Assembly: GCA_001804025.1 (NCBI GenBank) | Contig: MHFC01000120.1 | Coordinates: 1 to 14,698, forward strand | DNA length: 14,698 nt | Source: Omnitrophica bacterium GWA2_52_8 | Lineage (GTDB): Bacteria > Omnitrophota > Omnitrophia > Omnitrophales > Aquincolibacteriaceae | Direction: 5' to 3' | Shown here: in pieces, positions 543 to 14,698 of the stretch | How the letters are laid out: the number at the start of each line of letters is the position of its first letter | Numbering within the stretch: position 1 is the stretch's first letter | The notes under the pieces: model-generated | The model's input: the letters and a program-made list of their open reading frames with translations, nothing else | What the model was told of the DNA's origin: nothing | The model's database searches: none | Made by a program: the position numbers and the translations under genes

Positions 543-548
543 ATAAAA

Positions 549-1949: not shown

Positions 1950-2234
1950 CTAGAAAAGACTTCCGATGACTTTGAACGGCCACATCAGGACCTGGCCGAT
2001 CGTATAAAAAACGCCCCCGATGACGCCACGAGGGTGCGCACTGGTCGTCACCTCTTTTTGAGTCGTCACGGAACTTGTATGGCTATCGCCTGTTCCGCCG
2101 GTAGTCTGCGTCGTCACGGTTGAAGTCTTGGTTCTTCCCGCACAACCCGCTGCCGATAACGCGCTCAAACTCATGAGGCATACCAGGACTATCAAAAACC
2201 GCCTGTTTTTGAATGCTTCCATTATTTTTTTCAT
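1950..2234 (-). CDS. Small Ser/Thr-rich lipoprotein
   Basis: The 94-residue product has a charged N-terminus, a hydrophobic segment (about 12-29) and a lipobox ending SAAGC with the lipidated Cys at 31, so it should be exported and acylated. Residues 36-66 are Ser/Thr-rich, probably a flexible linker. The C-terminal 25 residues (GVIGGVFYTIG onward) form a hydrophobic or amphipathic stretch that could associate with membrane. The chosen ATG overlaps the stop of the upstream HPr-like gene as ATGA (2231-2234), and an AAGGA ribosome-binding site lies 8 bases before it; an ATG three codons earlier would have no room for a binding site. Translational coupling is likely. I do not recognise a named family. 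Confidence 0.8.
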   Translation of the reverse strand: MKKIMEAFKNRRFLIVLVCLMSLSALSAAGCAGRTKTSTVTTQTTGGTGDSHTSSVTTQKEVTTSAHPRGVIGGVFYTIGQVLMWPFKVIGSLF

Positions 2235-2578
2235 AGCCCACATCCTTCTTCGAATTCATCGTTAAAATAAGTTTTCTTTTTAAGATCGCCCGCCCATCGT
2301 TTCCGGGTCCGAAAAAAATCTTCGGCCCCTTCTATCGCCTGGATGGCATCGTCCCCCACCGCCTCGATTTCGAGTTTCGATTTCCAGCCGGCCCCAAGGG
2401 CGAGAAGCCCCAGGATACTTTTTCCATCGGCGACGACTTCCCCTCTCCGGATGCGGATGCTGGAACGAAATTCCTGCATACACGCTACAAACCGCGCCGC
2501 GGCCCGGAGATGAAAGCCCGCCTTGCCGGGCATGGTGACCCTGATGGTTTGGGTTAATGGCTCCCCGGAAGTTCCCAT
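2231..2578 (-). CDS. HPr-like phosphocarrier protein
   Basis: HPr proteins carry phosphate on a histidine between Enzyme I and sugar-specific PTS enzymes, or in regulatory branches (NPr type). This 115-residue protein has the active-site region KAGFHLRAAARF with H23 and the conserved Arg two residues later (usual form HARPAA), and the regulatory-Ser region GKSILGLLAL with S54, the residue phosphorylated by HPr kinase in many lineages. It is longer than the usual 85-90 residues because of an N-terminal extension and a charged C-terminal tail after about residue 95. I chose ATG 2578, preceded by GGAGAG at 13 bases; a TTG at 2608 is possible but lies only 3 bases from its GAGGA. No Enzyme I, kinase or PTS permease is nearby, so a regulatory role is plausible but inferred. 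Confidence 0.85.
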   Translation of the reverse strand: MGTSGEPLTQTIRVTMPGKAGFHLRAAARFVACMQEFRSSIRIRRGEVVADGKSILGLLALGAGWKSKLEIEAVGDDAIQAIEGAEDFFRTRKRWAGDLKKKTYFNDEFEEGCGL

Positions 2579-2602
2579 TTTCAGTTCTTTTCTCTCCGCA
2601 AA

Positions 2603-2630
2603 TCGCAAAAATCCTCACGGATTTTTGCGA
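2603..2630. promoter_or_regulatory. Perfect 12-bp inverted repeat upstream of the HPr-like gene
   Basis: The arms TCGCAAAAATCC and GGATTTTTGCGA are perfectly complementary around a 4-base loop. The element lies 24 bases upstream of the HPr-like ATG and 86 bases after the preceding gene. No T-run follows on the minus strand, so a standard Rho-independent terminator is unlikely. It may be an operator, a leader hairpin that modulates HPr translation, or a transcript-stabilising stem. Confidence 0.6.
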
Positions 2631-2716: not shown

Positions 2717-3007
2717 TTAGATCTTGCCGTCCCAGCGTCCGCCCTGGCGATCAATCAAACCGTCCCAACCTGACCAAAAACGGAAAGGCGGAAAAAGGCC
2801 GATGATGGCGTGCGTCCAATTCTTTTTGGTTTCATTGTCATTGATATATTGTCCGATCCCCGGCCAAATAAGGAGCGACACAAGGCCGCTGACGACTGTT
2901 TTACCCGTTATTTTTCCATGGGTTGCCGTATTCACCGCAAAAGCCTGAGACGGCACAGCCGTAAAAATCAAAGCGGCCATTGCCAGCACTGCCATTATTT
3001 TTTTCAT
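2717..3007 (-). CDS. Small exported protein with a TM2-like hydrophobic motif
   Basis: The 96-residue product starts with a signal peptide (MKKIMAVLAMAALIF, likely cleaved after SQAFA at residue 24). The mature part has a hydrophobic run VVSGLVSLLIWPGIGQYIND (38-57) whose PGxGQ turn resembles TM2-type membrane proteins, a second hydrophobic stretch AIIGLFPPFRFWSGW (67-81), and a basic glycine-rich tail. The start at 3007 is supported by AGGAGC 9-10 bases upstream and by the signal peptide beginning there; the 55 codons in frame ahead of it look like untranslated leader. A palindromic promoter at 3132-3176 implies a leader of about 118 bases. It is probably the first gene of a unit with the HPr-like protein and the lipoprotein. 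Function unknown. Confidence 0.75.
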   Translation of the reverse strand: MKKIMAVLAMAALIFTAVPSQAFAVNTATHGKITGKTVVSGLVSLLIWPGIGQYINDNETKKNWTHAIIGLFPPFRFWSGWDGLIDRQGGRWDGKI

Positions 3008-3131
3008 TTTAAATAGCTCCTGTTTTGTTGGTTTAATCCCTCTTAGGTTCCGGTGTTCTTTCATTACGCCCTTGCCTGAAGGACCTCTCAAACTCCTGAA
3101 CCCGTAATCCATCTGCTTTCCTGCCGCATTG

Positions 3132-3176
3132 ATCCTAGACGGAAACCCCGGAGCCTTCCATGGGGTGTTCACCCCA
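3132..3176 (-). promoter_or_regulatory. Palindromic-box promoter Pa (exported protein/HPr/lipoprotein unit)
   Basis: A perfect 16-bp palindrome with a 4-base centre, TGGGGTGTTCACCCCA (3161-3176), is followed on the minus strand by CCCCAT, 22 bases, then the -10-like hexamer TAGGAT (3137-3132). Inferred start is near 3125, placing the palindrome centre at about -43.5. There is no good -35. The 22-base spacer contains GGTTTCC, as in Pb; Pd has GGTTTTC. Confidence 0.65.
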
Positions 3177-3190
3177 AGCGCAAGGAGGGG

Positions 3191-3835
3191 TTATTTATCC
3201 TTTGCCGGCGCATATTGCCTTCCGCCGAAATTCTCGGCAGCAAAATTCCAATTGATTAGTTTATCCAACATCGTGGTCAGATAATCGTTTCTCCGGTTCT
3301 CATAATCCAGGTAATAGGCGTGTTCCCATACATCAAGGGTTAAAAGCGGCGTCCCCAGACCTTGCGAAACGGGGTTCCCGGCATTTGATGTTTTGGCGAT
3401 TCTAAGGATGCCGCCATCTTTAACGAGCCACACCCAGCCGCTTCCGAATTGATCCATGCCGGCCTGTGCGAATTCCCGGATTAAATTTTCATAACTCCCG
3501 AAACCCGATTCAATCTTTTCCGCCAGCTCGCCCGATGGTTTTCCTCCGCCTTTAGGCGACAAACTGCGCCAATAAAAATTATGGTTCCAGACTTGCGCGG
3601 CATTATTAAAAATGGCGGTTTTACCGGCTTGGCCGGCAGCCGCGGAAACAATGTCTTCAAGTTTCAGATCCGCGAACTCCGTTTCAGAAACAAGCGCATT
3701 GAGTCGGTCCACATAACCCTGATGGTGTTTGCCATAATGAAAGTTAAGGGTCTTGGCGGAAAGATACGGTTCTAAAGCGTTCTGTGGGTAGGGAAGTGCG
3801 GCTAAGGTAACCGGCTTGGATTGGGGCTGAATCAT
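3191..3835 (-). CDS. sodB: Superoxide dismutase, iron type
   Basis: It converts superoxide to oxygen and hydrogen peroxide. The 214-residue sequence contains the four metal ligands of the Fe/Mn family: H33 (NFHYGKHHQ), H85 (VWNHNFYW), D168 and H172 (LDVWEHAYY). Gln in AAQVWNH and Ala-Gly in TSNAGNP match iron-type enzymes rather than the Gly and Gln-Asp at these sites in manganese enzymes, but metal use cannot be proven from sequence, so the symbol is tentative. There is no signal peptide, so it should be cytoplasmic. The ATG at 3835 follows AAGGTG by 6 bases. It lies 106 bases downstream of the collagen-like lipoprotein gene with no convincing terminator between, so it may share promoter Pb. 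It is slightly longer than typical (about 190-200) at the N-terminus. Confidence 0.93.
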   Translation of the reverse strand: MIQPQSKPVTLAALPYPQNALEPYLSAKTLNFHYGKHHQGYVDRLNALVSETEFADLKLEDIVSAAAGQAGKTAIFNNAAQVWNHNFYWRSLSPKGGGKPSGELAEKIESGFGSYENLIREFAQAGMDQFGSGWVWLVKDGGILRIAKTSNAGNPVSQGLGTPLLTLDVWEHAYYLDYENRRNDYLTTMLDKLINWNFAAENFGGRQYAPAKDK

Positions 3836-3941
3836 GGAAACACCTTTTGTTTTTTTCCTTCAAGGGAGACTGCGGCGGCCGGCTTCGCGCCCCCCAAGAC
3901 GCTGCGCCGACACGCCGCTTATCTTCCTATTACGTTCCTAA

Positions 3942-4874
3942 TTACGCCGTGGTAAAAAGCACCGCGACGCGTCCTTCACGTCTCGAGTCCTTCTGATCCA
4001 TCGCCCCCGTCATAATTTTTTCAGGCGACACCCCTTTGCGGATCAAAGCGGCCCGTATTTCATTAACACGCTGATCATTAAGATTTTGATCATGTGCCTG
4101 CATCGCGGTACCATCAATACCAAGCTTCAACGATGGATTTGCTCTCATATAATCCGCGATTTCGTTTACTTTACTTAAACCCCCGGCATTAAGTCCGGTT
4201 TCCTGAGAATTGAACTGGAATTCCTTGTAAGGATTCCAATAACCCACCCTGCCGATCGCGCCTTGATACCCCGTTGCTCCCTGCTCTCCTCTAATCCCGG
4301 AAGCTCCGGAAGCACCTTCTGAACCCGCGCGACCATCCGTGGTGGTTCCTTTATAACCTGATTCTCCTTCAATTCCCTGTTGCCCTGCAGAACCGGCAAA
4401 ACCCGCAGGACCTGTAGGCCCATACAAAGTGGCCCCTTTAGCGCCCGCTTCTCCGACAGGACCGCGTTCACCCCTCGGACCTACAGCGCCTCTAGGACCT
4501 TCATACCCGAGCAAACTGTCACCTTGCTCGCCTTGATTCCCTATTTCGCCTTGAGGACCACGCGCACCGGCGGGCCCCATTGCGCCTACGGCACCACGCG
4601 CCACATCACCCTCAGCTCCCCTTGGGCCCGTAAAACCTTGCGCTCCTGCAGGCCCCGCCGGACCTGTTTCGCCGCGTCCGCCGCTTAACGAAAACCCAGC
4701 GACGCCTTGGGGGCCCACGGAACCTTGTTCCCCTGTAGCACCGACAGGCCCCTGAGGACCGCGCGGGCCGACAAGGCTTGCAGATTTGGGAGTGCTGCTA
4801 CAACCGGCCATGAGAGACAAACTGCTCATGCCCAATAAAACCATTACCCATTTAAACATATGTTGTAATTTCAT
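3942..4874 (-). CDS. Collagen-like repeat lipoprotein with C-terminal OmpA-like domain
   Basis: The 310-residue protein has a signal sequence with lipobox LMAGC (lipidated Cys25), about 175 residues of Gly-X-Y triplets (36-210, with several interruptions such as FSLSGGRG and TTTDG), then an OmpA-like domain (about 215-310). In the latter, NLNDQRVNEIRAALIRKGVS and the closing RREGRVAVLF correspond to the peptidoglycan-binding N-x2-L-x2-R-A-x2-V and R-x2-N-R-R-V regions, with some key positions changed. The predicted molecule is anchored by lipid at one end and perhaps bound to peptidoglycan at the other, with a rod-like, possibly trimeric, stalk between. The start at 4874 has GAGGA 5 bases upstream and begins the signal peptide; the in-frame extension upstream contains promoter Pb and is not coding. 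Confidence 0.88.
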   Translation of the reverse strand: MKLQHMFKWVMVLLGMSSLSLMAGCSSTPKSASLVGPRGPQGPVGATGEQGSVGPQGVAGFSLSGGRGETGPAGPAGAQGFTGPRGAEGDVARGAVGAMGPAGARGPQGEIGNQGEQGDSLLGYEGPRGAVGPRGERGPVGEAGAKGATLYGPTGPAGFAGSAGQQGIEGESGYKGTTTDGRAGSEGASGASGIRGEQGATGYQGAIGRVGYWNPYKEFQFNSQETGLNAGGLSKVNEIADYMRANPSLKLGIDGTAMQAHDQNLNDQRVNEIRAALIRKGVSPEKIMTGAMDQKDSRREGRVAVLFTTA

Positions 4875-4925
4875 AATCGTCCTCTTCCTTTTCCTTGAAG
4901 TTAAATTCTTTGTTCTTAACTCATG

Positions 4926-4970
4926 ATCATAGGCGGGAAACCGCGCGGAAGATATGGGGTGCATACCCCA
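4926..4970 (-). promoter_or_regulatory. Palindromic-box promoter Pb (collagen-like lipoprotein)
   Basis: The palindrome TGGGGTGCATACCCCA (4955-4970) is followed on the minus strand by CCCCAT, 22 bases and the -10-like hexamer TATGAT (4931-4926). Inferred start is near 4919, so the palindrome centre is at about -43.5 and the leader is about 45 bases. The -35 region is poor. The arms and spacing match Pa exactly. Confidence 0.68.
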
Positions 4971-4995
4971 CGCTCAGAGGCCTGAGAAGGTTTGT

Positions 4996-5112
4996 TTAAA
5001 CGGCAATTCGCTCGGCCATATCCTGGCACCGGCCGGAACAAAAATTCCCTTCCACCATAACCGACTGCTTGGGGTTATCCGTTATCGGGTTGTCGCACAC
5101 GTCGCACTGCAT
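4996..5112 (-). CDS. Tiny zinc-finger protein (38 residues)
   Basis: The product has two cysteine pairs, CDVC (residues 3-6) and CSGRC (25-29), separated by 18 residues. This spacing can bind a single zinc ion in a treble-clef or FCS-like finger; the Phe before the second pair (NFCSGRC) is typical of such fingers. The gene is short but has a good ribosome-binding site (GGAG, 5 bases before the ATG), follows the DUF3309 gene by 19 bases on the same strand, and has no long competing frame, so I believe it is real. Function is unknown; RNA, protein or metal binding are all possible. Confidence 0.68.
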   Translation of the reverse strand: MQCDVCDNPITDNPKQSVMVEGNFCSGRCQDMAERIAV

Positions 5113-5131
5113 TGCCTCTCCGTTCGAATGA

Positions 5132-5290
5132 TTAAAGCCGCCCGGTTAGCAAAAGAATAACTAAAACAAGCACAAGCGCCCCGGAAATACCGCTGGGGGC
5201 GTATCCCCAAGACCTGCTGTGAGGCCAAGCGGGCAGTGCGCCCACAAGAAACAAAACGAAGACAATGAGTAATACGGTTGAAAGTGTCAT
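5132..5290 (-). CDS. DUF3309 family small membrane protein (52 residues)
   Basis: The sequence has the DUF3309 layout: an N-terminal transmembrane helix (about 4-19), the signature ALPAWPHSRSWGYAPSG (18-34) and a second hydrophobic helix (about 35-49). The family is widespread in Proteobacteria and environmental lineages; members are often seen beside stress-related small genes, and their function is unknown. The start is well supported: AAGGAGA lies about 6 bases before the ATG. It is followed 19 bases later by the zinc-finger gene. A probable promoter of the palindromic type (5337-5381) lies in the 3' end of the phosphatase fusion gene upstream. Confidence 0.88.
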   Translation of the reverse strand: MTLSTVLLIVFVLFLVGALPAWPHSRSWGYAPSGISGALVLVLVILLLTGRL

Positions 5291-5336
5291 CGGAATTCTC
5301 CTTTTAGTTGAAGCTGAACAGCTTTTTTTCAGATCC

Positions 5337-5381
5337 AGTCTAACGCCGCCCGGCCGGCGGTTCTATGGGGTTAACACCTGA
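5337..5381 (-). promoter_or_regulatory. Candidate palindromic-box promoter Ph inside the 3' end of the phosphatase fusion gene
   Basis: The minus strand reads an imperfect box, TCAGGTGTTAACCCCA (5366-5381; left arm differs from TGGGGT at two bases), then CCCCAT, 22 bases and TAGACT (5342-5337), which overlaps the TAG stop codon of the phosphatase gene. Inferred start near 5330 puts the box centre at about -43.5 and gives the DUF3309 gene a 40-base leader. Weaker than Pa, Pb and Pd because of the arm mismatches and coding overlap. Confidence 0.45.
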
Positions 5382-7706
5382 TGCCGCGGACTGCACTTTC
5401 AGATCGACAATAAGCGGAAGATGGTCTGAGGCAATGCGGTCCAATTCCGTGGAGGGAACTGCGATGTTCATAACTTCAATGTCCGGGCTGACAAAAAAAT
5501 GATCGATCCTGCTAAAAGGATAGCCGGCGAACCACGTGCTTTTCGGTTTATGAGACTCAACGAGCATCTGCGCGTCTCGAAGCGTACAGCCAATCCGCTT
5601 ACACACCGTGGACCGCGGGTCGGCGTTAAAATCCCCGCACAAAACAACCGCCCCCTGGCAGGCTGCATTGCCGGTCCAATCGGGACCAAGCAAGGCTTCG
5701 GCTTGAAGCAAGCGTTCGGCGGGCCATAAACTTAAATGACTTGTGATCAAATTAACCTTGATACCGTTCACGTCAATTTCCACCCACAGCGCGCCGCGGG
5801 GTTCGAAAAACCTGTGGCCTTTGAGGCGGGGAAGCGCATCCACTCGAATCATCTTTAGCGGGTAGCGGCTGAGAATCGCATTTCCGTATTTACCGTCTTC
5901 GAAAGAAAGAGACGACTGGAAATGAAAGGTCATTCCTAATTTACGCGCGATGGTTTCCGCCTGATCAATATTCCCGGAACGGTCTCTTCCCACATCAATT
6001 TCCTGCAGCGCCACAACGTCCGCGTTCTGGCGCGCGATCACCCGCGCGATCCGGTCCGGCGAAGTTTTTCCGTCCAGGCCCTCACAACTATGAACGTTAT
6101 AAGTCATCATCCGCAATGTCTTGGCTAACGGCACCGCCGGCTCCGATCCGGTTCCGGAAGCCCGTCCCAAATGCCGGAGCGCCGCCGCACGGATATCAAG
6201 CGGCCGCAAATAGGCCCGCCCGTTTAAAATTAAAGGCGCGTCCGGAGGAAGAAGCGCGAAGCCCCTTGTTTCTTCCGGCCCATAGCCCGCGTGACAGCCG
6301 CTTTCCGCGGCAAAGGTGATAAGTTTTTTCCCCTGGCACCATCCCGAAATGATTATTTTTCCGGCGTTCGGATGGTGGCATAAAGCCGTCAGATCCGCCG
6401 CAGCCTCTTCCAGAAAAGGATGGTCTTTCCCTAATATTTCGCGCGCGTCCCCGGGCAGCATAAATTTACCGTCCGGCGTCCGCGCCTCTACCTGCCTCAT
6501 TTCCCTGGGAATCAAAACCACAGGTATTTTTGCCGTATGCAGCAGTTCGGAAATCACGCGTTCTTTTTCTTCAGCGCTCAATTCCGCGGAAGGATAAACG
6601 TGAACAAGGGGGCCCATTCCAACCGCAATCACTTTTGAACCCGCGGTTTCCACCCGCTGGGCATGAGAAAAACAGTCCTTGTTTTTCAAACATTTAGCGA
6701 TTGAAAGTTCCCCGAAAATCGACGCAATCGCTTCTTCAACCGTCCGGCCGTTCTGCGCGGCATAAGGAACCGCGTCCTCCTGCCCGTGGTCCGAATAAAT
6801 CCAGATATCATAATCCCGCCGCTCAGCAAGCCTTGCTTCTTTCCAAACGCGTTTCGCGGCATCGTCAATCCCGCGCAGCGACCAATGCGCGAATTTCGAA
6901 GAAGGGCCCCGCCAATGGGCTTGCTCGTCGTATCCCATAAAATTCAAATGAATGACGGGTAATCCGCGGGCGATATCAATTTTCCCTCCCAGAACCACAA
7001 GCTCCCTCAGCAATACGCAGAGCGCCGCCCTCGTGGGGATGTATTTAAACTCCATGACCACCTTTTTACCGGCGATAACGCCTTGCATAAAATCATAAAT
7101 CCCGATGAGGGTTTCAAGGAAAAGCAGAATCACGGTGCGGAAAAAGATATTCAGATGAAAAACAAAAATGAGAACCCATGTAAACGGATTAAAAACCTTA
7201 AAAAGCCTGCTATAGCCGCCGCCCGCCGCACAATAATGAGACTCTTCGGCTCCGCCCGTAAAAATATTGGCGTATGAACTCCCGCCTTTAAGAAGCGGGT
7301 CGGCATCCTTGCTGATGCGCGCTTCTATTTCCTGAGCGTATTTCGGATTAAACATCACAAACGTTTCACCGCTCTGCCGGTCCAAAAAATTAAAGGCGGG
7401 AACGCATCCTTTTACCCCATAAAAAAGTTCGCCTTGCACCGCAGGCGTATTAGACGGCATGCCGGAATAATGTTCATAATCTCTATATTTTTGCTTCTCA
7501 AGAACAGACCGGAGAAACGGAAGATTTCCTTCGCGAAGTCCCCGCTGATATTGTTTATAGGAGAGCCCGTCAATTTGAATCAAGACCAGCCCCGGGGCCG
7601 TTGGCGTCCCCTCGGATTTGGAGAGGCGCAGTAAACGGACCGCCCAATAAGAGCGGTTGAACCCATTCCTTAACCTCCTGAGACTGAATCCTATTTTACC
7701 GATCAT
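5340..7706 (-). CDS. Alkaline-phosphatase-superfamily domain fused to an EEP phosphatase/nuclease domain
   Basis: The 788-residue protein joins two hydrolase folds. Residues about 38-510 form an alkaline phosphatase/phosphodiesterase-type domain: D46 in IQIDG, a nucleophile region PSNTPA (85-90, probably T87), D260 and H264 in GYDEQAHW, D306-H307 in SDHGQ and H472 in GCHAGYG, so the metal sites appear intact. A hydrophobic stretch (about 173-207) inside this domain could be membrane-inserted. Residues about 530-771 form an endonuclease/exonuclease/phosphatase domain with N537 (TYNVH), E569 (LQEID), H657 (TSHLS), D692 and N694 (GDFN), D735-H736 and the D761-H762 pair (SDHLP), all catalytic. 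Its ATG overlaps the glycosyltransferase stop (ATGA, 7703-7706). A phosphodiester or phospholipid-related substrate is plausible but inferred. No signal peptide is evident. Confidence 0.88.
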   Translation of the reverse strand: MIGKIGFSLRRLRNGFNRSYWAVRLLRLSKSEGTPTAPGLVLIQIDGLSYKQYQRGLREGNLPFLRSVLEKQKYRDYEHYSGMPSNTPAVQGELFYGVKGCVPAFNFLDRQSGETFVMFNPKYAQEIEARISKDADPLLKGGSSYANIFTGGAEESHYCAAGGGYSRLFKVFNPFTWVLIFVFHLNIFFRTVILLFLETLIGIYDFMQGVIAGKKVVMEFKYIPTRAALCVLLRELVVLGGKIDIARGLPVIHLNFMGYDEQAHWRGPSSKFAHWSLRGIDDAAKRVWKEARLAERRDYDIWIYSDHGQEDAVPYAAQNGRTVEEAIASIFGELSIAKCLKNKDCFSHAQRVETAGSKVIAVGMGPLVHVYPSAELSAEEKERVISELLHTAKIPVVLIPREMRQVEARTPDGKFMLPGDAREILGKDHPFLEEAAADLTALCHHPNAGKIIISGWCQGKKLITFAAESGCHAGYGPEETRGFALLPPDAPLILNGRAYLRPLDIRAAALRHLGRASGTGSEPAVPLAKTLRMMTYNVHSCEGLDGKTSPDRIARVIARQNADVVALQEIDVGRDRSGNIDQAETIARKLGMTFHFQSSLSFEDGKYGNAILSRYPLKMIRVDALPRLKGHRFFEPRGALWVEIDVNGIKVNLITSHLSLWPAERLLQAEALLGPDWTGNAACQGAVVLCGDFNADPRSTVCKRIGCTLRDAQMLVESHKPKSTWFAGYPFSRIDHFFVSPDIEVMNIAVPSTELDRIASDHLPLIVDLKVQSAASGVNPIEPPAGRR

Positions 7707-9001
7707 GGGCGTTTTTCCGGAACCGCAGAAGCCGGCATTGGCGTGTCTTCGTTGGAACCAAAAGCTGCATCCATTGCCGCTTTAGTAAAATTGCAGAGAA
7801 GATCCCATTCCGCTTCGGCGCGCTGCATGAAAGGAAACCAGTCTTTCTCTTCTGCTTTTCCCTGAAAGCCTTTTGCTGTCTGCAGGCTCTCGTAAAGAGA
7901 AAGCGCTTTCCCGGCGCATCTTTGCATGGAAAACTGCATCGCGGTTTTTTTTGCCTCAGCGCTCAATTTTCTTCTTTCGGCAGGCGTATGCTGAAGCACC
8001 CAGTTTAGGGCTTTTATGAATTCTTCTTCGCTTTCATGGGCGACGAGCCGGCCGTTCACTTTGTCTCTCACAATATCCCGGACCCCCGGCGCGTCAAGGC
8101 CCACCACCGGAGTTCCGGCCGCCATGGCTTCATTCAATACCATCCCCTGAGTTTCGCTGCGGGAAGAAAATGCAAAAACATCAATCGCCTGAAAGGCCTC
8201 GATCAATTTTTCCCCCGTCAGTTCCCCCGCGAGAAACATCTGCCCCTCCAGTTTCTGCTTTTTAAAATATTTCAGGAGCTCCGCTTCCGACGGCCCGCTT
8301 CCGACGGCTAAAAAAACCGCACGGCTTTCTCTTTTTAAAAACGAAGCGGCCGCCCGGGTGAGAAAAGGCATGTTTTTTTCCGGCGAAAATCTGCCCACAT
8401 AGCCGACCACAAAAGCGTCTTTCGGGATTTTTGCCCGCTCTCTGAATTTCCCGGCGCCGCCTTTATATTGATTTAACTGCAGTCCGGTCGGGATAACCGT
8501 GATTTGCGTTTCCACTCCGCGCGCTTTTAACATTTCGGCGACGCTTTCGCTGGGTGCAATGACATGATCGCAGTGATTGGCATACCCCGTAGCAAGTTCA
8601 AGCACAAACCTTTTTACAGTCTCCGAATTGCCTACGTTTTCCTCATAAAGCGAGTGGTGGGTAAAAATCAGCGGCACCTTGTGGTCGTAAGCGAGCCGAA
8701 GCGCCGTGTCCCCCATAAGGAAAGGATGATGGGCATGAATAATGTCGGGGTTAAAGTCCCCCAGGGCTTCCATAAAAAATCCGGCGATAGGAAATTTTAC
8801 CGAAAATTTGGACCCGTAAAAATTTTGAAGCGCGGGGACTCGAATCACATCCAGTTCATGCTTGGGGCTGTTGTCATATTCGGGTGCAACAATGACAACC
8901 CGATGGCCCCGTTTACGGTATTCTTTTGTAAATGATTCGATCGAGCGTTCCAGGCCTCCTACCAGAGGCAAATAAGTATTGGTCATCATCAAAATATTCA
9001 T
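7703..9001 (-). CDS. GT4-type glycosyltransferase (GT-B fold)
   Basis: The 432-residue enzyme should transfer a sugar from an activated nucleotide donor to an acceptor, retaining anomeric configuration. Visible features are the N-terminal GGLERSIESF loop (15-24), HAHHPF (90-95), the start of the donor domain at VGYVGRFSPEKN (198-209, with R204 and K209), and SETQGMVLNEAMAAGTPVVG (282-301), with the E-x7-E pair at 283 and 291. The overall look resembles glucosyltransferases acting on diacylglycerol, but the acceptor cannot be decided. The C-terminal tail beyond about 375 is an extension. The start at 9001 gives an ATGA overlap with the preceding glycosidase-like gene (8998-9001), while 45 in-frame codons upstream are inside that gene. 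It overlaps the next gene in the same way, so all three should be co-translated. Confidence 0.9.
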   Translation of the reverse strand: MNILMMTNTYLPLVGGLERSIESFTKEYRKRGHRVVIVAPEYDNSPKHELDVIRVPALQNFYGSKFSVKFPIAGFFMEALGDFNPDIIHAHHPFLMGDTALRLAYDHKVPLIFTHHSLYEENVGNSETVKRFVLELATGYANHCDHVIAPSESVAEMLKARGVETQITVIPTGLQLNQYKGGAGKFRERAKIPKDAFVVGYVGRFSPEKNMPFLTRAAASFLKRESRAVFLAVGSGPSEAELLKYFKKQKLEGQMFLAGELTGEKLIEAFQAIDVFAFSSRSETQGMVLNEAMAAGTPVVGLDAPGVRDIVRDKVNGRLVAHESEEEFIKALNWVLQHTPAERRKLSAEAKKTAMQFSMQRCAGKALSLYESLQTAKGFQGKAEEKDWFPFMQRAEAEWDLLCNFTKAAMDAAFGSNEDTPMPASAVPEKRP

Positions 9002-11310
9002 CGCGCGCTCCGGGAACCGCGGGTCTCTGCTGATATTTCTAAGGAACTCTCCCCGGGTTTTACCTGTATGGGGACGCGGCCGGACAGACGAATTTCCATT
9101 GCCGGTTCTTTTCCCTGATGCCAATGGCCGGACCATCGGACCGTAATTTTTCCGTCTTCTGTCTTGATGCCCACTTGAACCGATCCGAACCTTGTAAGCG
9201 TGGGGCCCAAAGCGGCCTCTTTACCCTCCGCCATCCAGGAAACCGGAATGCCGGAGCATAAAATAAGTTTTTCCTCTTCTTCGCGCACAAAACAATTCCG
9301 GACCATCAGCACCCATTCCGCGGCCGCCCAAACGTGCTGGCCGTCCCCCATGCACCCGCCCTTGGTCCTGGGATGGACCGCTTCCGGCCATTGCCCTGTG
9401 GGTGTCGCCAACAAAGCAATCGAACCCATCAAATCAAAAAAACGGGGGTCTCCGGCACGCAAAAAAATCTGGGCGATATGCAGCGTTAAATAGACATTGA
9501 TTCCGGAATGACTGATCTCTTGATAAAACCCTCCGTGAACAAAGCATTCCCGGAACAGAAACTCGGCGGTATCAAAAACCCGGGGATCTCGCTCGGGAAA
9601 AAGTTGAAGCGGATAACCTGCCGCGATCGAGCCGATGGCGCCTGCATCCATTCTCCGGTGAGGAGAAGCGGGCATGAGGTTTCCTTTTGTTTGTTCAAAG
9701 GCGGTTTTCAAGCTCGCTTCTATGCACCGCAAAAAATCGTCGGCTTGGTCCAACAATTGCGCGGCAAATTCCTGATCCCCTAATTGACCGGCAAGATAGG
9801 CCCCCGCCCGAAGACCCGAGACGCCCCAAAAATCATCCCAGTAATAATAGTCATTGGGGCCGAGATGTTCGGCGCTGAATCCCACCGGAAGCAAACCAAA
9901 GGCCCTGCTCCCTTTCCCGAATTCTCTTTTGTTTTGAATCCATTTTGCGCCCCGGTAAACGGCCCTCTTCCATTTGGGGTCCGGTTTCTGACCCGTCAAT
10001 TCACAAAACCGGCGTATCGCCCATAACGCTTCTCCGTTAGAATCCCATTCCCCGTCTTGCGATAAAAAATAGCCGGCGGCGGTTTGGCGCATCGGGAACC
10101 GGTCGATAATTTTTTTTGCCCGTTTATCCAGCCCCACACAAAGCATGGCCTCCAGAATGAAGGCTGCGTCGCGAAACCAAAACCGTTTATATGTGTACGG
10201 GCCCGGGAAAATGTCCTGCTGCGGAGAATGTAAAATGAGAGACCGGATGGCAGCATCATAAAGAAACTGAAAATGTTGGTCCGGCAGACCGGCCCGGCAT
10301 AACCCGTCTAAGTTCTCATCCCATTTTGAAAGGGCAGACTTCAATTGCCCCGCCGGCTTCATCGGCGAATTTTTTATTATCGGGACAGAAATCGTGACCC
10401 TGCGTTTTACATTCGGCTCAAGTTCAAAAAGAGCTGCGGCTGTGGCCATCCCCACGGGGCACTCCACTTTATCCGCTTCTGACGGCAAGGGCAGCTGCCC
10501 GAAGACATCCCCTTTCCAATAATGAGAAAAACAAGTCCTCTCGGGTTCCGAATCAAAATGGACAAAGAATTGCCCGTTCACTTTCCACCCAAGCCGCTCG
10601 TCCAACAAAGAGATCTTGTTCAAAAAACTAATCCCTTCCGGGTTGCAGGGGCGGAGCGAGACCGCCAGCCAGCCGCCCGACGTTGACAGGGCCGTCAATT
10701 TGATTTGGCATATCACAATCCCGGATTGCTCATAAGCTTCCGCGCAGGAGCGGAGATTCATATCCTGATACTCAGAGGTTGTGATGACTTGGGGATTTCC
10801 CCGCAGATTCCACTCTTGCTGTGCCGAACCCAGTTTTGACGGGATTAACTGAAGTCCCTTTTTGTTCATCATCCACGCGTCAATCGACCATCCGTCAAAA
10901 AAGGGCGTGACCAATCCCCGGGGGTCGACAATGGACAAGTCGGTAAAGTCAGGAACTCCTACGGCCGTCCAGTTTCTGTGAGTCAGATTCAGGTGGGTGA
11001 GATTAAATGCCCGCGGAATAAACGATTCGTCATCCGGATCAAACTGGCGTTCGACCCAGTAAGGCCAAATCCAGTCCATATTGTGCTGAATCGCCTGGCT
11101 GTTGACTAACCCGCGGGCCTGCATAATCGCGCCCGCTCGAAGAAGTTCCTTGGGGGCCATGAGTTCGGAGGGTTGGGCGAAACGCCTGAGACTGGCTAAA
11201 ACCAAAATCGGGTCGAGAAAACCTTCAACGCGCGCGATATGCCGGACAAAAAAATCTCTGAACTTTGTTGACAGATATCTTGATATCCTGCCGAAAAATA
11301 TTTTTCGCAT
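8998..11310 (-). CDS. Six-hairpin glycosidase-like protein (GH15/GH63-like, putative)
   Basis: The 770-residue protein has a beta-rich N-terminal half (about 100-320) and an (alpha/alpha)6-type C-terminal half (about 340-680), as in glucoamylase, glycogen-debranching and related glycosidases. Supporting segments are YTYKRFWFRDAAFILEAML (372-390), GYFLSQDGEWDSNGEALW (413-430), YYYWDDFWGVSGL (488-500) and GDGQHVWAAAEW (655-666). Candidate catalytic acids are D381, E421, D423 or E427; I cannot assign them reliably. There is no signal peptide, so cytoplasmic action is likely. An AGGGA site precedes the ATG by about 7 bases. It heads a three-gene coupled operon with a glycosyltransferase and a phosphatase fusion, suggesting synthesis or turnover of a sugar polymer or glycolipid. 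Family-level call only; the substrate is unknown. Confidence 0.75.
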   Translation of the reverse strand: MRKIFFGRISRYLSTKFRDFFVRHIARVEGFLDPILVLASLRRFAQPSELMAPKELLRAGAIMQARGLVNSQAIQHNMDWIWPYWVERQFDPDDESFIPRAFNLTHLNLTHRNWTAVGVPDFTDLSIVDPRGLVTPFFDGWSIDAWMMNKKGLQLIPSKLGSAQQEWNLRGNPQVITTSEYQDMNLRSCAEAYEQSGIVICQIKLTALSTSGGWLAVSLRPCNPEGISFLNKISLLDERLGWKVNGQFFVHFDSEPERTCFSHYWKGDVFGQLPLPSEADKVECPVGMATAAALFELEPNVKRRVTISVPIIKNSPMKPAGQLKSALSKWDENLDGLCRAGLPDQHFQFLYDAAIRSLILHSPQQDIFPGPYTYKRFWFRDAAFILEAMLCVGLDKRAKKIIDRFPMRQTAAGYFLSQDGEWDSNGEALWAIRRFCELTGQKPDPKWKRAVYRGAKWIQNKREFGKGSRAFGLLPVGFSAEHLGPNDYYYWDDFWGVSGLRAGAYLAGQLGDQEFAAQLLDQADDFLRCIEASLKTAFEQTKGNLMPASPHRRMDAGAIGSIAAGYPLQLFPERDPRVFDTAEFLFRECFVHGGFYQEISHSGINVYLTLHIAQIFLRAGDPRFFDLMGSIALLATPTGQWPEAVHPRTKGGCMGDGQHVWAAAEWVLMVRNCFVREEEEKLILCSGIPVSWMAEGKEAALGPTLTRFGSVQVGIKTEDGKITVRWSGHWHQGKEPAMEIRLSGRVPIQVKPGESSLEISAETRGSRSAR

Positions 11311-11339
11311 AGAGCTTCCCTAGTACATTGTTTCATTAA

Positions 11340-11369
11340 AAATTAGGAGTGTTTTTTATAAGGAGACAA
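11340..11369 (-). promoter_or_regulatory. Weak candidate promoter for the glycosidase operon
   Basis: On the minus strand TTGTCT (11369-11364) and TAATTT (11345-11340) are 18 bases apart and upstream of the ATG at 11310. The match to the sigma-70 consensus is modest in this AT-rich stretch. Notably no palindromic GGGGT/ACCCC box is present here. Confidence 0.25.
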
Positions 11370-11373
11370 GTAC

Positions 11374-11416
11374 AGTACTGTGTTCCGATTCATAAAAATT
11401 AATGTTACACAGTACT
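11374..11416. repeat. 10-bp inverted repeat directly after the membrane-protein gene
   Basis: The arms AGTACTGTGT (11374-11383) and ACACAGTACT (11407-11416) are perfectly complementary across 23 bases. On the minus strand the stem begins at the stop codon of the membrane protein and has no T-run after it. It may act as a transcript-end stem between two operons, or be a remnant of an IS200/REP-like mobile element, whose ends often carry sequences of this type; the latter is from memory and unproven. Confidence 0.6.
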
Positions 11417-11852
11417 AGTTGAGCCGAACTCTAGCATAATTGAAAAGTTGAATGCCATAAACCCCGAGAAAGCTAAAATAGAGAACGGCCAGCGCAGGAA
11501 TCACAACGGACCATGCGATTTTGGCTCGCCTGGAAAATACGGAACTCTGCCATAAAAGCGGGAGCGCTAAAAAACCTCCTGCGAGCAGCATCGCCACGAT
11601 ATAAGCTTTTGAATCGTTAAACGAGCTTGCTCTCCCCTGCGAAAGCATGTAAGTCTCGATGACCGCGGGAACCATGACCATCAAGTAAGCAAAACACGTC
11701 AGCAACTGACCGACGGCCGACCGTAAAAGAATAATTGAGCAAACAATTCCAATATCAACGACAAAAAGCGCCGCCGCCTTCCCTCTCTTGCCGACCGCCA
11801 GATGCCCCATCCCGGGCAACAGAGAAAGGCTTGCGGCAAGAAGGGGCTGCAT
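11415..11852 (-). CDS. Small polytopic membrane protein (145 residues)
   Basis: About four to five hydrophobic segments are visible: 3-18 with a PGMGH turn, 27-44, 46-70, 83-101 and 111-133. The N-terminal LSLLPGMGHLAVGKRGKAAALF resembles the opening of TM2-type or 'PGxGq' membrane proteins and echoes the PGIGQ segment of the exported protein at 2717-3007, though the two are not otherwise alike. The ATG follows the upstream stop codon (TAA) without a gap, so translation is probably coupled; there is only a weak binding site of its own. It is the last gene of a five-gene run that starts at 12726. Function unknown. Confidence 0.72.
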   Translation of the reverse strand: MQPLLAASLSLLPGMGHLAVGKRGKAAALFVVDIGIVCSIILLRSAVGQLLTCFAYLMVMVPAVIETYMLSQGRASSFNDSKAYIVAMLLAGGFLALPLLWQSSVFSRRAKIAWSVVIPALAVLYFSFLGVYGIQLFNYARVRLN

Positions 11853-12080
11853 TTAGGCCGCTTCTACAGTACCGCGATTTTCCTCTTCCCGGTACAAATC
11901 TTCCATTTCATCTTCCTTCTCTTTTTCATTCAGGCCGGCGGCATGCTGTCCCGGCAGACGGCTTTTGAGCCCCGCACCTTTTTCCCGCACTTTCTGATTT
12001 CGTCTTAATTTTTCACTTTCGCTTGCGGTGCGTTCGCGGGCGGCGTCTGTCTCAACAGCATTCTGCTTTGGATTTTTCAT
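11853..12080 (-). CDS. Small highly charged hydrophilic protein (75 residues)
   Basis: The product is rich in Glu, Lys, Arg and Ala with no hydrophobic core or Cys and no signal peptide, so it should be cytoplasmic and perhaps disordered or helical. The composition resembles that of small stress or desiccation-associated proteins, but no family can be named. The gene has a good binding site (AGGGGA about 6 bases before the ATG) and abuts the downstream membrane-protein gene. It lies within the small-gene operon led by promoter Pd. Confidence 0.65.
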   Translation of the reverse strand: MKNPKQNAVETDAARERTASESEKLRRNQKVREKGAGLKSRLPGQHAAGLNEKEKEDEMEDLYREEENRGTVEAA

Positions 12081-12114
12081 GACACTTCCCCTTTTGAAAA
12101 TATTTTCGGATTTT

Positions 12115-12131
12115 CGCCGCTATCTGCGGCG
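12115..12131. other. Intercistronic GC hairpin
   Basis: CGCCGC and GCGGCG pair perfectly around a 5-base loop between the entericidin-like gene and the next gene of the operon. No T-run follows on the minus strand, so it more likely protects or attenuates the transcript than fully terminates it. Confidence 0.4.
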
Positions 12132-12139
12132 CGCCCCTT

Positions 12140-12265
12140 TTACTTCTGCATATGGCTTCCGAGCTCCGAGATATCGGAACCGATTCCGCGCGTCGTTCCG
12201 CTATGACAACCGGCGGACAAAACCGATAAGCAAAGCAGAATAACTATCACCGTAATGTTTTTCAT
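12140..12265 (-). CDS. Entericidin-like small lipoprotein (41 residues)
   Basis: The peptide has a hydrophobic signal segment (5-18) and a lipobox ending SAGC with Cys20; the 21-residue mature part contains TTRGIGSDISELG, matching the T-V/x-R-G-x-G-x-D-I pattern typical of entericidins. Entericidins are tiny outer-membrane or periplasmic lipoproteins linked in Enterobacteria to stationary-phase bacteriolysis and elsewhere to stress. A GGGGAAGAGG purine-rich binding site directly precedes the ATG. The gene lies 14 bases after the SHOCT-like lipoprotein gene and belongs to the same run. The assignment rests on a short match, but length, lipobox and motif agree. Confidence 0.72.
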   Translation of the reverse strand: MKNITVIVILLCLSVLSAGCHSGTTRGIGSDISELGSHMQK

Positions 12266-12279
12266 CCTCTTCCCCTTCC

Positions 12280-12516
12280 TTACGACGTAAGGGACATCTG
12301 TTTAATTTGATCGACACGGATGTCATACTCGCTTTGGTTGATTTTCCCTGAATCAAGATCCTTCTTAAGTTGATTCAACTTCACCTGAGCATTGGCTTCA
12401 TACCCGGCCCCCGTCGCAAGCGTTCCGCCCCCGGCGCCCGTCCAAAATGCACCGCTGCATGCCGACAACCCAAGCATCATCGATAAAAGCAATGTCACTA
12501 ATAATATGTTTTTCAT
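12280..12516 (-). CDS. Small lipoprotein with a SHOCT-like C-terminal domain
   Basis: The 78-residue product has a signal sequence and a lipobox ending LSAC with Cys20, a glycine-rich segment (22-38) that could cross or insert into membrane, and a C-terminal helical hairpin, LNQLKKDLDSGKINQSEYD (47-65) plus its continuation to about 74, with the pattern of SHOCT (short C-terminal) domains, which often aid oligomerisation. The start has GAGGGGG 4-5 bases upstream. It lies 24 bases after the first gene of the operon and 14 bases before the entericidin-like gene. Role unknown; an envelope stress protein is a reasonable guess. Confidence 0.78.
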   Translation of the reverse strand: MKNILLVTLLLSMMLGLSACSGAFWTGAGGGTLATGAGYEANAQVKLNQLKKDLDSGKINQSEYDIRVDQIKQMSLTS

Positions 12517-12540
12517 TTTTTCCCCCTCGCCCGCAAAAAT

Positions 12541-12726
12541 TCAGGCTTTGTTTTCAGTTGTCATCGGGACGCTCGTACGGCTTTTCCGGACCGCGCCGCT
12601 TCCGTAAAGCAAACTTAACGGCGGAGAGTCCAAAAAGGAGGTCTCCTTTTCAAGCGTCATCATTAGCTCATCGAAGTCATCGTTATTTCTTTTAAAATAC
12701 CGTTTGAACGGTTCTGGAATATTCAT
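12541..12726 (-). CDS. Small hypothetical protein, first gene of the five-gene operon (61 residues)
   Basis: I do not recognise a family. The N-terminal half is charged (FKRYFKRNNDDFDELMMTLE), the centre has a short hydrophobic stretch (SPPLSLLYGSG) and the C-terminus is basic then polar. There is no signal peptide. I chose ATG 12726 because GGAGG lies 7 bases upstream; an ATG six codons earlier at 12744 would start inside or before that site and lies almost at the inferred transcription start (about 12748). It is the first gene after promoter Pd, with a leader of about 22 bases. Confidence 0.65.
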   Translation of the reverse strand: MNIPEPFKRYFKRNNDDFDELMMTLEKETSFLDSPPLSLLYGSGAVRKSRTSVPMTTENKA

Positions 12727-12754
12727 GTCATTACCTCCTTCCATCTCTGGCTTG

Positions 12755-12800
12755 ATCTTAAGAGAAAACCTGTCGGAGGTTCTATGGGGTATTCACCCCA
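12755..12800 (-). promoter_or_regulatory. Palindromic-box promoter Pd (small-gene operon)
   Basis: The palindrome TGGGGTATTCACCCCA (12785-12800) is followed on the minus strand by CCCCAT, 23 bases and TAAGAT (12760-12755). Inferred start near 12748; palindrome centre about -44.5. The spacer carries GGTTTTC, close to GGTTTCC in Pa and Pb, and the bases just after the -10 (TAAGATCAA) match those of Pa (TAGGATCAA). Confidence 0.68.
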
Positions 12801-12846
12801 CGCGGGGCTTTTTTAAATGAAATAGCGCCGGCCGGGGGCCAATGCC

Positions 12847-13527
12847 CTAGCGGATGGTGATCTGAACACTGCTTTCGATGATTCCTGCGGAAATGGCGTA
12901 GCGGGTAAGCCCTGCGGTGTCGTGAATATTAAGCTTCTCCATAAGATGCTGGCGGTGTTTTTCAACCGTTTTAATGCTGATCCCAAGTTCTGCGGCGATT
13001 TCCTTGTTCGCTTTTCCTTCGGCAATCAGTTGAAGAGCCTCGGCCTCGCGCGAACTCAAACGGACGTTTTTCTTTTTGAAGATCCCGTTTCGCCCGAGCG
13101 ATTGTTTGTTTTTCTTTTCGAGGCGCTTTGTAATGTCTGCGCTGAAAAAGGTGTTTCCGTTTTTAACTTCTTGTATCGCTTTGGACAAAACTTCTGCGGA
13201 ACTTTGTTTGATTAAAAAACCCGAGGCGCCAATCGCGATCATTCTATCAATGTATTCATCATCGCTATGGGCCGAAAGCACTAAAATTTTCGTGGCGGTA
13301 ACGGCCTTCATGATTTGCACGGCGGCTTCAAATCCGTTCAGAAGCGGCATGGCAATATCCATCACGACCACGTCGGGACGGAGTTTCTTGGCAAGTTCTA
13401 CGGCCTCGCGGCCGTTGCGGGCCTCGGCGATCACCCGGATGTCCTTTTTAGTTTCCAGCACCATCCGCAGCCCCTCGCGAACCACCGTATGATCATCCGC
13501 TAACATAACTGTGATGGGCTTTTTCAT
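12847..13527 (-). CDS. NarL/FixJ-family response regulator (LuxR-type DNA-binding domain)
   Basis: The 226-residue protein has a receiver domain (about 5-122) with the acidic pair D11-D12, phosphoacceptor D57 (VVVMDIAMP), S85 and K107, and a LuxR/NarL-type helix-turn-helix domain (about 155-215) containing LSSREAEALQLIAEGKANKE and the recognition region ISIKTVEKH. All receiver residues needed for phosphorylation are present, so it should be a DNA-binding transcription factor switched by its partner kinase. It starts 3 bases after the kinase stop with an AGGAAAG site inside the kinase 3' end. Regulators of this family bind short inverted repeats, often at about -42 for activation, which fits the palindromes at six nearby promoters; that binding is inferred. 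Confidence 0.95.
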   Translation of the reverse strand: MKKPITVMLADDHTVVREGLRMVLETKKDIRVIAEARNGREAVELAKKLRPDVVVMDIAMPLLNGFEAAVQIMKAVTATKILVLSAHSDDEYIDRMIAIGASGFLIKQSSAEVLSKAIQEVKNGNTFFSADITKRLEKKNKQSLGRNGIFKKKNVRLSSREAEALQLIAEGKANKEIAAELGISIKTVEKHRQHLMEKLNIHDTAGLTRYAISAGIIESSVQITIR

Positions 13528-13530
13528 GAT

Positions 13531-14340
13531 TTAAAAGCTTTCCTGTGTTCCATTGAAAGGAATCTGGGCTCCGATCGTGGTGCCTATTTCCTTTACGGAT
13601 TTTACCTCAAATCTACCGCCCACCATCTCCACGCGTTCACGCATGCCAAGCAAACCCAATCGTTTGTTTTTCTTAGCGTACAGAACGCGTTCGACATCAA
13701 AAGACTTTCCGTTGTCTTGAATCGCCATATAAACAGAGCGGTGCTTCTTTTGAATTTCCACTTTCACAAGGCTTGCTTGCGCGTGCTGCGCGACATTCGT
13801 AAGGGCGGCCTGCGCGACGCGGTAGAGCACGGTCCGCTTGGCGTTGTTTAATCGCTCCACGCCGGAAAAGACCTTAAATCGGATCGGAATTCTGGTGTGT
13901 TTCGTAAAACCCTTCATGTACGCATGAAGTGCCGGTATCAGCCCCAGGTCATCTAAAAGCGTCGGCCTAAGATCGCGGGCAAACCGGTGCACGATGTTCA
14001 CCGATTTTTCCACAAGCCGCTGAGTGCGGGTAATTTTTTTCTTGAGGCCCTTGGTATTGACTGCGGCCTCAACTTTTAACGTCGCCAGATGGGCATTAAT
14101 TCCCGACAGCGTTTGGGCAATTTCATCGTGGAGCTCACGGCTGATTTCTTTCCGTTCTTCTTCCTGCGCCTGGATAATTTGACGGGACAAATGCCTCAAA
14201 TGCTCCTGCATATTACGTGACTGTTCCAATAAGCAGTTGTAGTGTTGTCCGCTTTTTATGAGTTTTTTTTCCACACCTTTGCGAACCGCGATTTCCTGCT
14301 TCAGCTTCCGCCGCAACAGATCCTTTGATTTATCTGTCAT
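13531..14340 (-). CDS. Soluble histidine kinase, HisKA_3/NarX-type
   Basis: The 269-residue kinase begins with a coiled-coil-like region (about 1-60) and has the HisKA_3 phosphoacceptor segment ERKEISRELHDEIAQTLSG with H71 (62-80), then a HATPase_c domain (about 165-262) with N182 in ALTNVAQHA, DNGKSFD (209-215) and the glycine loop GLLGMRERV (230-238). There is no transmembrane segment and no PAS, GAF or other sensor domain, so it probably senses a cytoplasmic signal through the coiled coil or a partner protein. The N-box reads QAALTN where most relatives have QEALTN, so a usually conserved Glu is Ala178. I chose ATG 14340, with GAGAGG just upstream, over ATG 14358, which lacks a well-spaced site. 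It is followed after 3 bases by its response regulator. Confidence 0.93.
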   Translation of the reverse strand: MTDKSKDLLRRKLKQEIAVRKGVEKKLIKSGQHYNCLLEQSRNMQEHLRHLSRQIIQAQEEERKEISRELHDEIAQTLSGINAHLATLKVEAAVNTKGLKKKITRTQRLVEKSVNIVHRFARDLRPTLLDDLGLIPALHAYMKGFTKHTRIPIRFKVFSGVERLNNAKRTVLYRVAQAALTNVAQHAQASLVKVEIQKKHRSVYMAIQDNGKSFDVERVLYAKKNKRLGLLGMRERVEMVGGRFEVKSVKEIGTTIGAQIPFNGTQESF

Positions 14341-14390
14341 AGAGCCCTCTCGAATCATCGCTGTCAGATGATCCCTTTATTCGTACCAAT

Positions 14391-14432
14391 ATCGTATGAT
14401 CGCGCTTTTCCTTACTATGGGGTAATACCCTA
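14391..14432 (-). promoter_or_regulatory. Palindromic-box promoter Pe (kinase/regulator operon)
   Basis: On the minus strand TAGGGTATTACCCCA (14418-14432) precedes CCCCAT, 20 bases and TACGAT (14396-14391). Inferred start near 14384; palindrome centre about -41. The box has a 3-base centre and one arm mismatch. Autoregulation by the encoded regulator is the obvious inference. Confidence 0.55.
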
Positions 14433-14455
14433 CCCTCCTCAAATGCCCCGCTGAA

Positions 14456-14499
14456 TAGGGTTTCACCCCATATAAGAAAGATCCGTACGCCCGTAGTAT
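14456..14499 (+). promoter_or_regulatory. Palindromic-box promoter Pf (divergent small basic protein)
   Basis: On the plus strand TAGGGTTTCACCCCA (14456-14470) precedes CCCCAT, 22 bases and TAGTAT (14494-14499). Inferred start near 14506; palindrome centre about -43; the ATG is 25 bases further. It mirrors the Pe box, from which it is separated by 23 bases, so the two divergent promoters share one regulatory region. Confidence 0.6.
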
Positions 14500-14530
14500 A
14501 GCTCCAAACAGATGAAGGGGGTGATTTCAA

Positions 14531-14638
14531 ATGGCTAAGAAAAGCAGAGGCGGTCGAATGACTGCCGCAAAAAAACGCGCAGCCAAGTCAGCGGGCGGCC
14601 GCGATCCCGTTAGTCCGGTTTTCTCATCGATTAGGTGA
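14531..14638 (+). CDS. Small basic protein (35 residues)
   Basis: This is the only plus-strand gene I support. The N-terminal 24 residues (MAKKSRGGRMTAAKKRAAKS and so on) are strongly basic and Gly/Ala-rich, like nucleic-acid-binding tails; the rest is short and neutral. A GGGGGTGA binding site lies about 6 bases before the ATG, and promoter Pf lies just upstream, both favouring a real gene. It has no recognisable family. The 3' end, including the stop codon, lies within a strong inverted repeat (14616-14654). Confidence 0.6.
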   Translation: MAKKSRGGRMTAAKKRAAKSAGGRDPVSPVFSSIR

Positions 14639-14654
14639 ATCGATAAGAAAACCG
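14616..14654. other. 17-bp inverted repeat overlapping the 3' end of the small basic gene
   Basis: The arms of 17 bases pair with one mismatch around a 5-base loop. On plus-strand RNA the mismatch is C-A; on minus-strand RNA it becomes a G-U wobble. No T-run follows on either side, so its role is uncertain; a second hairpin starts immediately after it. Confidence 0.6.
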
Positions 14655-14686: not shown

Positions 14687-14698
14687 GCGCCCGCGTTT

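Follow-up and report, generated by a model that had tools for sequence, protein, structure and literature searches.

A palindromic box at a fixed distance from a -10-like hexamer points to a response-regulator regulon in Omnitrophota and Verrucomicrobiota

In a 14,698-nucleotide stretch of the draft genome of Omnitrophica bacterium GWA2_52_8 (contig MHFC01000120.1, positions 1 to 14,698; hereafter the window), six copies of one short palindrome stand ahead of small lipoprotein, membrane protein and regulatory genes. What do these boxes do, and which protein reads them? The first-pass annotation, made from the sequence alone, had proposed that a response regulator encoded in the window at 12847..13527 (minus strand) binds all six and controls a compact regulon. 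We find that the boxes are far beyond chance and belong to a conserved operator-promoter design that is real. By record title, the combination of this regulator, this box and this promoter geometry is found again in Verrucomicrobiota, Omnitrophota and some further phyla. The local regulator is most likely the protein that binds the boxes, and sequence comparison makes it very probable that it thereby drives a stress or envelope regulon along with its own operon.

Three minus-strand boxes have a four-base spacer (N4). The box TGGGGTGAACACCCCA at 3161..3176, with a -10-like TAGGAT at 3132..3137, precedes the unit encoding an exported protein, an HPr-family protein and a lipoprotein; TGGGGTATGCACCCCA at 4955..4970, with TATGAT at 4926..4931, precedes a collagen-like lipoprotein gene; and TGGGGTGAATACCCCA at 12785..12800, with TAAGAT at 12755..12760, lies directly 3' of the regulator gene and precedes an operon of small genes. 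Also on the minus strand, TCAGGTGTTAACCCCA at 5366..5381, a box with a degenerate distal half, stands with TAGACT (5337..5342) ahead of a DUF3309 gene. The last two boxes have a three-base spacer (N3) and diverge: TAGGGTATTACCCCA at 14418..14432 (minus strand), with TACGAT at 14391..14396, precedes the kinase-regulator operon, a possible case of autoregulation, and TAGGGTTTCACCCCA at 14456..14470 (plus strand), with TAGTAT at 14494..14499, precedes the gene for a small basic protein. Every hexamer is on the strand of its box. The distances separating the final A of each box from its TANNNT are 23 (box 3161), 23 (4955), 23 (5366), 24 (12785), 21 (14418, the shortest of the six) and 23 bases (14456), which bears out the coordinates and spacing of the first-pass annotation. 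Its placement of every box upstream of a gene needs one qualification, since by coordinates the box at 5366-5381 is not intergenic and falls in the last codons of the gene at 5340-7706. The left half of this box is indeed degenerate, as had been noted, and two relatives retain it in the same degenerate form.

Sites this close to perfect stand out in the window. TRGGGTN4ACCCCAT with no mismatches occurs three times, against none in 200 dinucleotide shuffles, and GGGTN3-4ACCCCAT five times, against a shuffle mean of 0.03. The excess is weak once mismatches are allowed: with three, the window holds 10 sites against a mean of 5.1, and 10 of the 200 shuffles reach 10. In the organism's own genome, TRGGGTN4ACCCCA with one mismatch yields 11 strand-hits and its reversed pattern 5. 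The significance is therefore carried by near-perfect sites. Across that genome, a draft of 2.196 Mb that is 82% complete, TRGGGTN4ACCCCA without mismatches is found at three places, all within the window, and GGGTN3-4ACCCCAT at six, five of them within the window (reversed pattern, none). Genome-wide, both the perfect and the looser places are thus strongly clustered, an outcome that favours the regulon proposal.

Is the box peculiar to this contig? When public genomes were scanned with the regulator as query, 80 loci were recovered (59-71% identity, 1.16 Mb in total). Judged by record title, most are Verrucomicrobiota-type; the others are Omnitrophota, Planctomycetes-type and a small number of further kinds. 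With palindromic sites counted on both strands, GGGTN3-4ACCCCA scored 241 strand-hits (5 in reversed sequence) and was present in 58 of the 80 loci. The stricter TRGGGTN3-4ACCCYAT gave 198 strand-hits without mismatches and none in reversed sequence; sites with at most one mismatch and a TANNNT 22-25 bases on numbered 131 against 0; for exactly two mismatches the figures are 157 against 82. Reversed-sequence controls at the regulator loci are near zero, and we therefore discard chance as the source of the boxes. In 53 of the loci the regulator has a perfect or promoter-like site no more than 2.5 kb away. The open frames around box sites are also shorter than those around random positions (median 402 against 1149 nucleotides; 147 sites, 735 random positions), as expected for mostly intergenic DNA, although 16% of the sites lie in frames of at least 900 nucleotides. 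Two isolates, Verrucomicrobium sp. BvORR106 and Geminisphaera colitermitum, carry both regulator and box.

The relatives also reveal the geometry of the promoter. The offset from CCCCA to the hexamer peaks at 23 for N3 boxes and at 23-24 for N4 boxes, so that 23±1 is preferred by both, and the fixed box-to-hexamer distance first seen in the window is kept. N3 boxes mostly read GTA-GGGT (56 of 87), with TTC or TAC as spacer. N4 boxes read ATG-GGGT in 115 of 153 cases, and GAAC and AAAC are among their spacers; N4 sites were read in both orientations. Between the two classes the proximal half is fixed relative to the -10 and the distal half is shifted. If the hexamer is set at -12 to -7, the centre of the box would fall at -43.5 (N4) or -43 (N3), near the position originally computed. 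Directly after the box, at the -35 position and 17 bases ahead of the hexamer, relatives show a weak conserved TNG, which makes the earlier statement that there is no good -35 slightly too strong. The T of this TNG is possibly part of the palindrome itself.

The regulator has the composition expected of a NarL/FixJ-type response regulator, a receiver followed by a GerE helix-turn-helix (HTH) domain. Both Pfam matches exceed their cut-offs (Response_reg 93.3 bits, GerE 68.7 bits), and a Sigma70_r4_2 match of 29.7 bits overlaps the HTH. The phosphorylatable aspartate D56 and the conserved lysine K106 (alignment numbering) are invariant across ten aligned regulator sequences. In the 80 orthologs the recognition helix KTVEKHR is nearly invariant: K186, T187, H191 and R192 are found in 80 of 80, K190 in 77 and E189 in 73. 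Ten loci carry D189 or R190 variants, and a box lies within 2.5 kb in one of these ten against 52 of the 70 with the common helix (Fisher 1.6e-4), in a grouping chosen after the data had been seen. The regulator of locus L099, 44% identical, has a different recognition helix. In one ortholog (L016:3646-4323, genome G052/JAFGHI, 71% identical) an in-frame TAG lies about 12 codons before the end, through either an assembly error or a shortened tail. Adjacent to the regulator, the gene at 13531..14358 (minus strand) encodes a 275-residue histidine kinase with HisKA_3 and HATPase_c domains, in which Pfam found no sensor domain, PAS or other.

We then asked whether box and regulator travel together, in counts that take no account of genome relatedness. 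Within the window's phylum (Omnitrophota-type), the regulator occurs in 6 of 193 genomes (E < 1e-85), whose box counts are 6 (own genome), 1 (G030), 13 (G052), 12 (G066), 14 (G035) and 7 (G125). At least five boxes are present in five of these six, against 3 of the 187 others (Fisher 1.6e-7). In the phylum of G200 (Verrucomicrobium), a regulator homolog (E up to 1e-60) was detected in 31 of 194 genomes; at least three boxes occur in 25 of the 31 against 30 of the 163 others (Fisher 4e-11), and density is 1.89 boxes per Mb with the regulator against 0.45, while the reversed control is 0.23 in both groups (no difference, p 0.2). Box number thus rises with the regulator in two phyla, as the first-pass annotation had led us to expect, with exceptions in both directions that we return to below. 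The local arrangement recurs as well. A box follows the regulator gene by 20-230 bases in G066, G035, G125 and the own genome, and by about 370 in G052 (L016). Upstream of the kinase, G066 shows one strict site; the others (own genome, G035, G125, G052) have a divergent pair there. The single box of G030 is 2.1 kb from its regulator. In G066, 10 of the 12 strand-hits are on the contig carrying the regulator. Compactness of the regulon, part of the original proposal, holds for the own genome, but some relatives have a larger one: G196 has 61 strand-hits.

Boxes are also retained ahead of some orthologous genes. The collagen-like lipoprotein has one upstream in three of three genomes (own, G052, G035), and a 78-residue small lipoprotein in two of two, with a box of the same sequence in G052. 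The degenerate DUF3309 box reads AGGTGTTNACCCCATAGAAC identically in the own genome, G066 and G052 and is therefore under constraint. Two relatives of the gene at 11415-11852 have a box 250-270 bases upstream. From 42 DUF3309 matches we derived 30 loci in regulator genomes (L160 lacks upstream sequence); a slightly loose box lies within 320 bases in 15 of the 30 against 0 of 10 loci in regulator-less genomes of the window's phylum, a comparison in which the regulator-less loci are all Omnitrophota-type and the regulator-bearing ones mostly Verrucomicrobiota-type. Eight of the 15 boxes also have a spaced hexamer, and three further loci of regulator-bearing genomes (own, G052, G066) show only the degenerate box. 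For CsbD (52 matches, 30 loci), a box, weak in one case, is upstream in 9 of 30 loci in regulator genomes against 0 of 15 others (reversed control 0; Fisher 0.016), and 7 of the 9 have a hexamer. CsbD itself is present in 32 of 54 regulator-bearing genomes against 11 of 80 others.

From these patterns we infer binding, activation rather than repression, phosphorylation, response to a signal and a role in stress. The adjacent sensor-less kinase, perhaps with others, would phosphorylate the regulator at 12847-13527, and the phosphorylated dimer would bind TRGGGT-N3/4-ACCCCAT. The proximal half, ACCCCAT, would end at the weak TNG serving as -35 element, 17 bases ahead of the TANNNT -10, and the dimer, centred near -43, would recruit RNA polymerase in the manner of a class II-type activator. 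Predicted targets are the small lipoproteins and membrane proteins, the collagen-like lipoprotein, DUF3309, the exported protein/HPr unit and possibly superoxide dismutase (SOD), and the regulator would also drive its own operon.

Several observations weigh against this model. For HPr (1 ortholog), the exported protein (1) and SOD (3 matches), no box was found directly upstream of the ortholog; the exported-protein gene of G035 follows the collagen-like gene, and a shared transcript is therefore possible. There is no box within 2.5 kb in 27 of the 80 regulator loci, some of them on short contigs. G030 has the regulator and one box; no box was seen in G260 or G400, each of which has a homolog. 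Conversely, G017, G183 and G053 in the window's phylum and G265 (14 boxes), G356, G366, G381 and others in that of G200 are box-rich with no detected regulator; to these add the phylum split of the DUF3309 loci and the disregard of relatedness in the co-occurrence statistics, both noted above. Among the matches listed, the spacers in G366 look partly regulon-like, GGGTCTGACCCCAT-type palindromes dominate in G183 (9 of 9) and G053 (4 of 6), and G017 is mixed; the same GGGTCTGACCCCAT-type repeats, retained in all our counts, inflate those of G183, G053, G413 and G035, the last of which has the regulator. This palindrome, GGGTCTGACCCCAT / GGGTCAGACCCCAT, recurs at several places in G183, G053, G413 and G035, thus in genomes with and without the regulator, and looks like a different element. 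A search with the receiver half in 18 box-rich genomes with no detected regulator gave matches in eight, none above 53% identity, which is a weak test of ortholog absence because this half binds no DNA and a limited number of candidates was scored.

Box-rich genomes that lack a detected ortholog raise the alternative that the boxes are bound by a different regulator encoded within or close to the cluster, be it a paralogous response regulator or some other factor, and that the protein at 12847-13527 is merely a linked target. Further kinases and receivers occur among the genes behind boxes elsewhere, and G343 carries five regulator homologs. Still, we consider this unlikely: the own genome has a single regulator homolog passing 1e-50, box number goes up with the regulator in two phyla, the presence of a box near the gene follows the type of recognition helix, and the homolog locus L091, which has no box, comes from the same assembly (PLAY01) as the box-rich L025. 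Of about the same low probability is the idea that the boxes are repressor operators at which the regulator, possibly in its unphosphorylated form, would keep polymerase off the -35. Steric repression is conceivable, since the box abuts that position; however, a weak -35 is typical of activator-dependent promoters, and the 23±1 offset and anchored proximal half are what an activator needs, as is generally the case for NarL/FixJ regulators. The boxes are, finally, inverted repeats, some in divergent pairs (14418/14456), as mobile repeats, RNA hairpins or terminators might be, but their flanks differ between copies, none of the six in the window is followed by a T run, and they keep a preferred spacing to the hexamer that follows, which puts them ahead of the predicted start sites; all of this makes a role other than protein binding highly improbable. 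We therefore retain activation by the local regulator as the preferred reading. One genome, G343 (C24, C29, C62, C66), with its five regulator homologs and 30 box strand-hits, may represent an expansion of the circuit.

The genes behind the window boxes are, except where stated, on the minus strand. Downstream of box 12785 come a 67-residue protein of no family (12541..12744), the 78-residue lipoprotein-like protein (12280..12516) and a 41-residue lipoprotein (12143..12265) with no Pfam match, which we take to be entericidin-like; a small protein similar to it stands behind a box in L019. The DUF3309 membrane protein is encoded at 5132..5290, and the collagen-like lipoprotein, with an OmpA-like end just below the Pfam cut-off, at 3942..4874. 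The Fe/Mn SOD gene (3191..3835) has no box of its own and may be reached by read-through from 4955. After box 3161 follow the predicted exported protein (2717..3112, start uncertain), the HPr-family protein (2231..2608) and a small lipoprotein-like gene (1950..2243). The 35-residue basic protein (14531..14638, plus strand) belongs to no family. An imperfect inverted repeat at 14616-14654, CGGTTTTCTCATCGATT / AATCGATAAGAAAACCG, spans the end of its gene, with the stop codon in the loop and no T run after it. Elsewhere in the window, the 788-residue product of 5340-7706 joins a type I phosphodiesterase domain to an endonuclease/exonuclease/phosphatase domain, and the neighbouring genes encode a glycosyltransferase and a 770-residue protein with no Pfam match. 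A 48-nucleotide direct repeat (485-532 and 1891-1938, 96% identical) flanks a Fic-domain gene (549-1736); its first copy lies inside the open reading frame at 54-542, and a similar stretch seems, from translation, to be present further along the contig (L133, near 2860).

What lies behind boxes elsewhere? Removal of repeated downstream DNA left 300 oriented sites, palindromes being counted in both orientations; 129 had a spaced hexamer, 126 a candidate first gene picked by simple score, and 122 were aligned and scanned, L025:12049-12963, L031:5957-12001, L069:10929-14486 and L089:5660-8806 being left out. Some chosen frames are surely wrong, and the tallies are therefore descriptive; background rates were measured for CsbD and DUF3309 upstream regions only. 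Among the best 25 of 68 Pfam families in these 122 first genes are the two-component families HATPase_c (10), HisKA_3 (7) and Response_reg (6), then BON and DUF3300 (3 each), and ferritin, Ysc84, CsbD, DUF5670, DUF1328, PRC, collagen and OmpA (2 each). Families such as CsbD, BON, DUF1328, DUF5670, PRC and ferritin are typical of general stress, and the predicted gene set resembles that of general stress responses. More tentatively, one might suppose a general stress response that the Verrucomicrobiota-Omnitrophota-Planctomycetes group has in common, in which a DNA-binding response regulator takes the place of an alternative sigma factor and the operator is a 15/16-base-pair box of two spacings anchored by its proximal half; this is a possibility towards which we do not yet lean. 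Our searches suggest that little has been written about how transcription is controlled in these phyla, which are mostly uncultured. A box readable from the genome, with a probable regulator and target set, would make stress-type regulons predictable in many species and gives the small unknown families DUF3309, DUF1328, DUF5670 and DUF3300 a probable context.

How does this system compare with known ones? As a kind, the pairing of a NarL/FixJ regulator and a palindrome near -43 is known; as far as our searches show, the box, the pair of spacings, the gene set and the phyla are undescribed. A literature search at the level of abstracts and listings, including full-text motif strings, found no description of this regulon, in line with the first-pass annotation, and no paper containing the NreC box strings. 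The best NCBIfam matches of the window regulator and kinase are MctR/MctS and NarL/UhpA; at 203 of 300 bits for MctR and 164 of 700 for MctS they are well below the curated cut-offs, and the two proteins are therefore not members of the MctR/MctS equivalogs. By sequence, the closest solved structure to the regulator is VraR, and DesR also ranks high. VraR, DesR and LiaR are envelope-stress regulators, whose boxes and target genes differ from those here.

The nearest parallel in design is NreBC, which likewise pairs a HisKA_3-type kinase, NreB, with a NarL-type regulator and a GC-rich palindrome. The NreC box is GTAGGG-N4-CCCTAC, with GGG and CCC four bases apart, whereas here they are five or six apart, and NreB has a PAS/iron-sulphur sensor domain, whereas the window kinase shows only HisKA_3 and HATPase_c in Pfam. 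A passage of PMC8139620 reports that phosphorylated NreC of Staphylococcus binds a GC-rich palindromic region. Unlike those of NreBC, the predicted target genes seen here are not nitrate genes.

In gene content, the likeness is to the EcfG/PhyR and RpoS general stress responses, with which the predicted target families overlap. PhyR has a sigma-like domain and is paired with an ECF sigma factor, whereas the window regulator consists of receiver and HTH only (ECF sigma factors were not searched for). CsbD appears in an EcfG paper (PMC7083833), and CsbD and DUF1328 in an RpoS paper (PMC5437024). Those responses work through alternative sigma factors; the one proposed here would instead work through a DNA-binding response regulator whose box lies beside a sigma-70-like -10.

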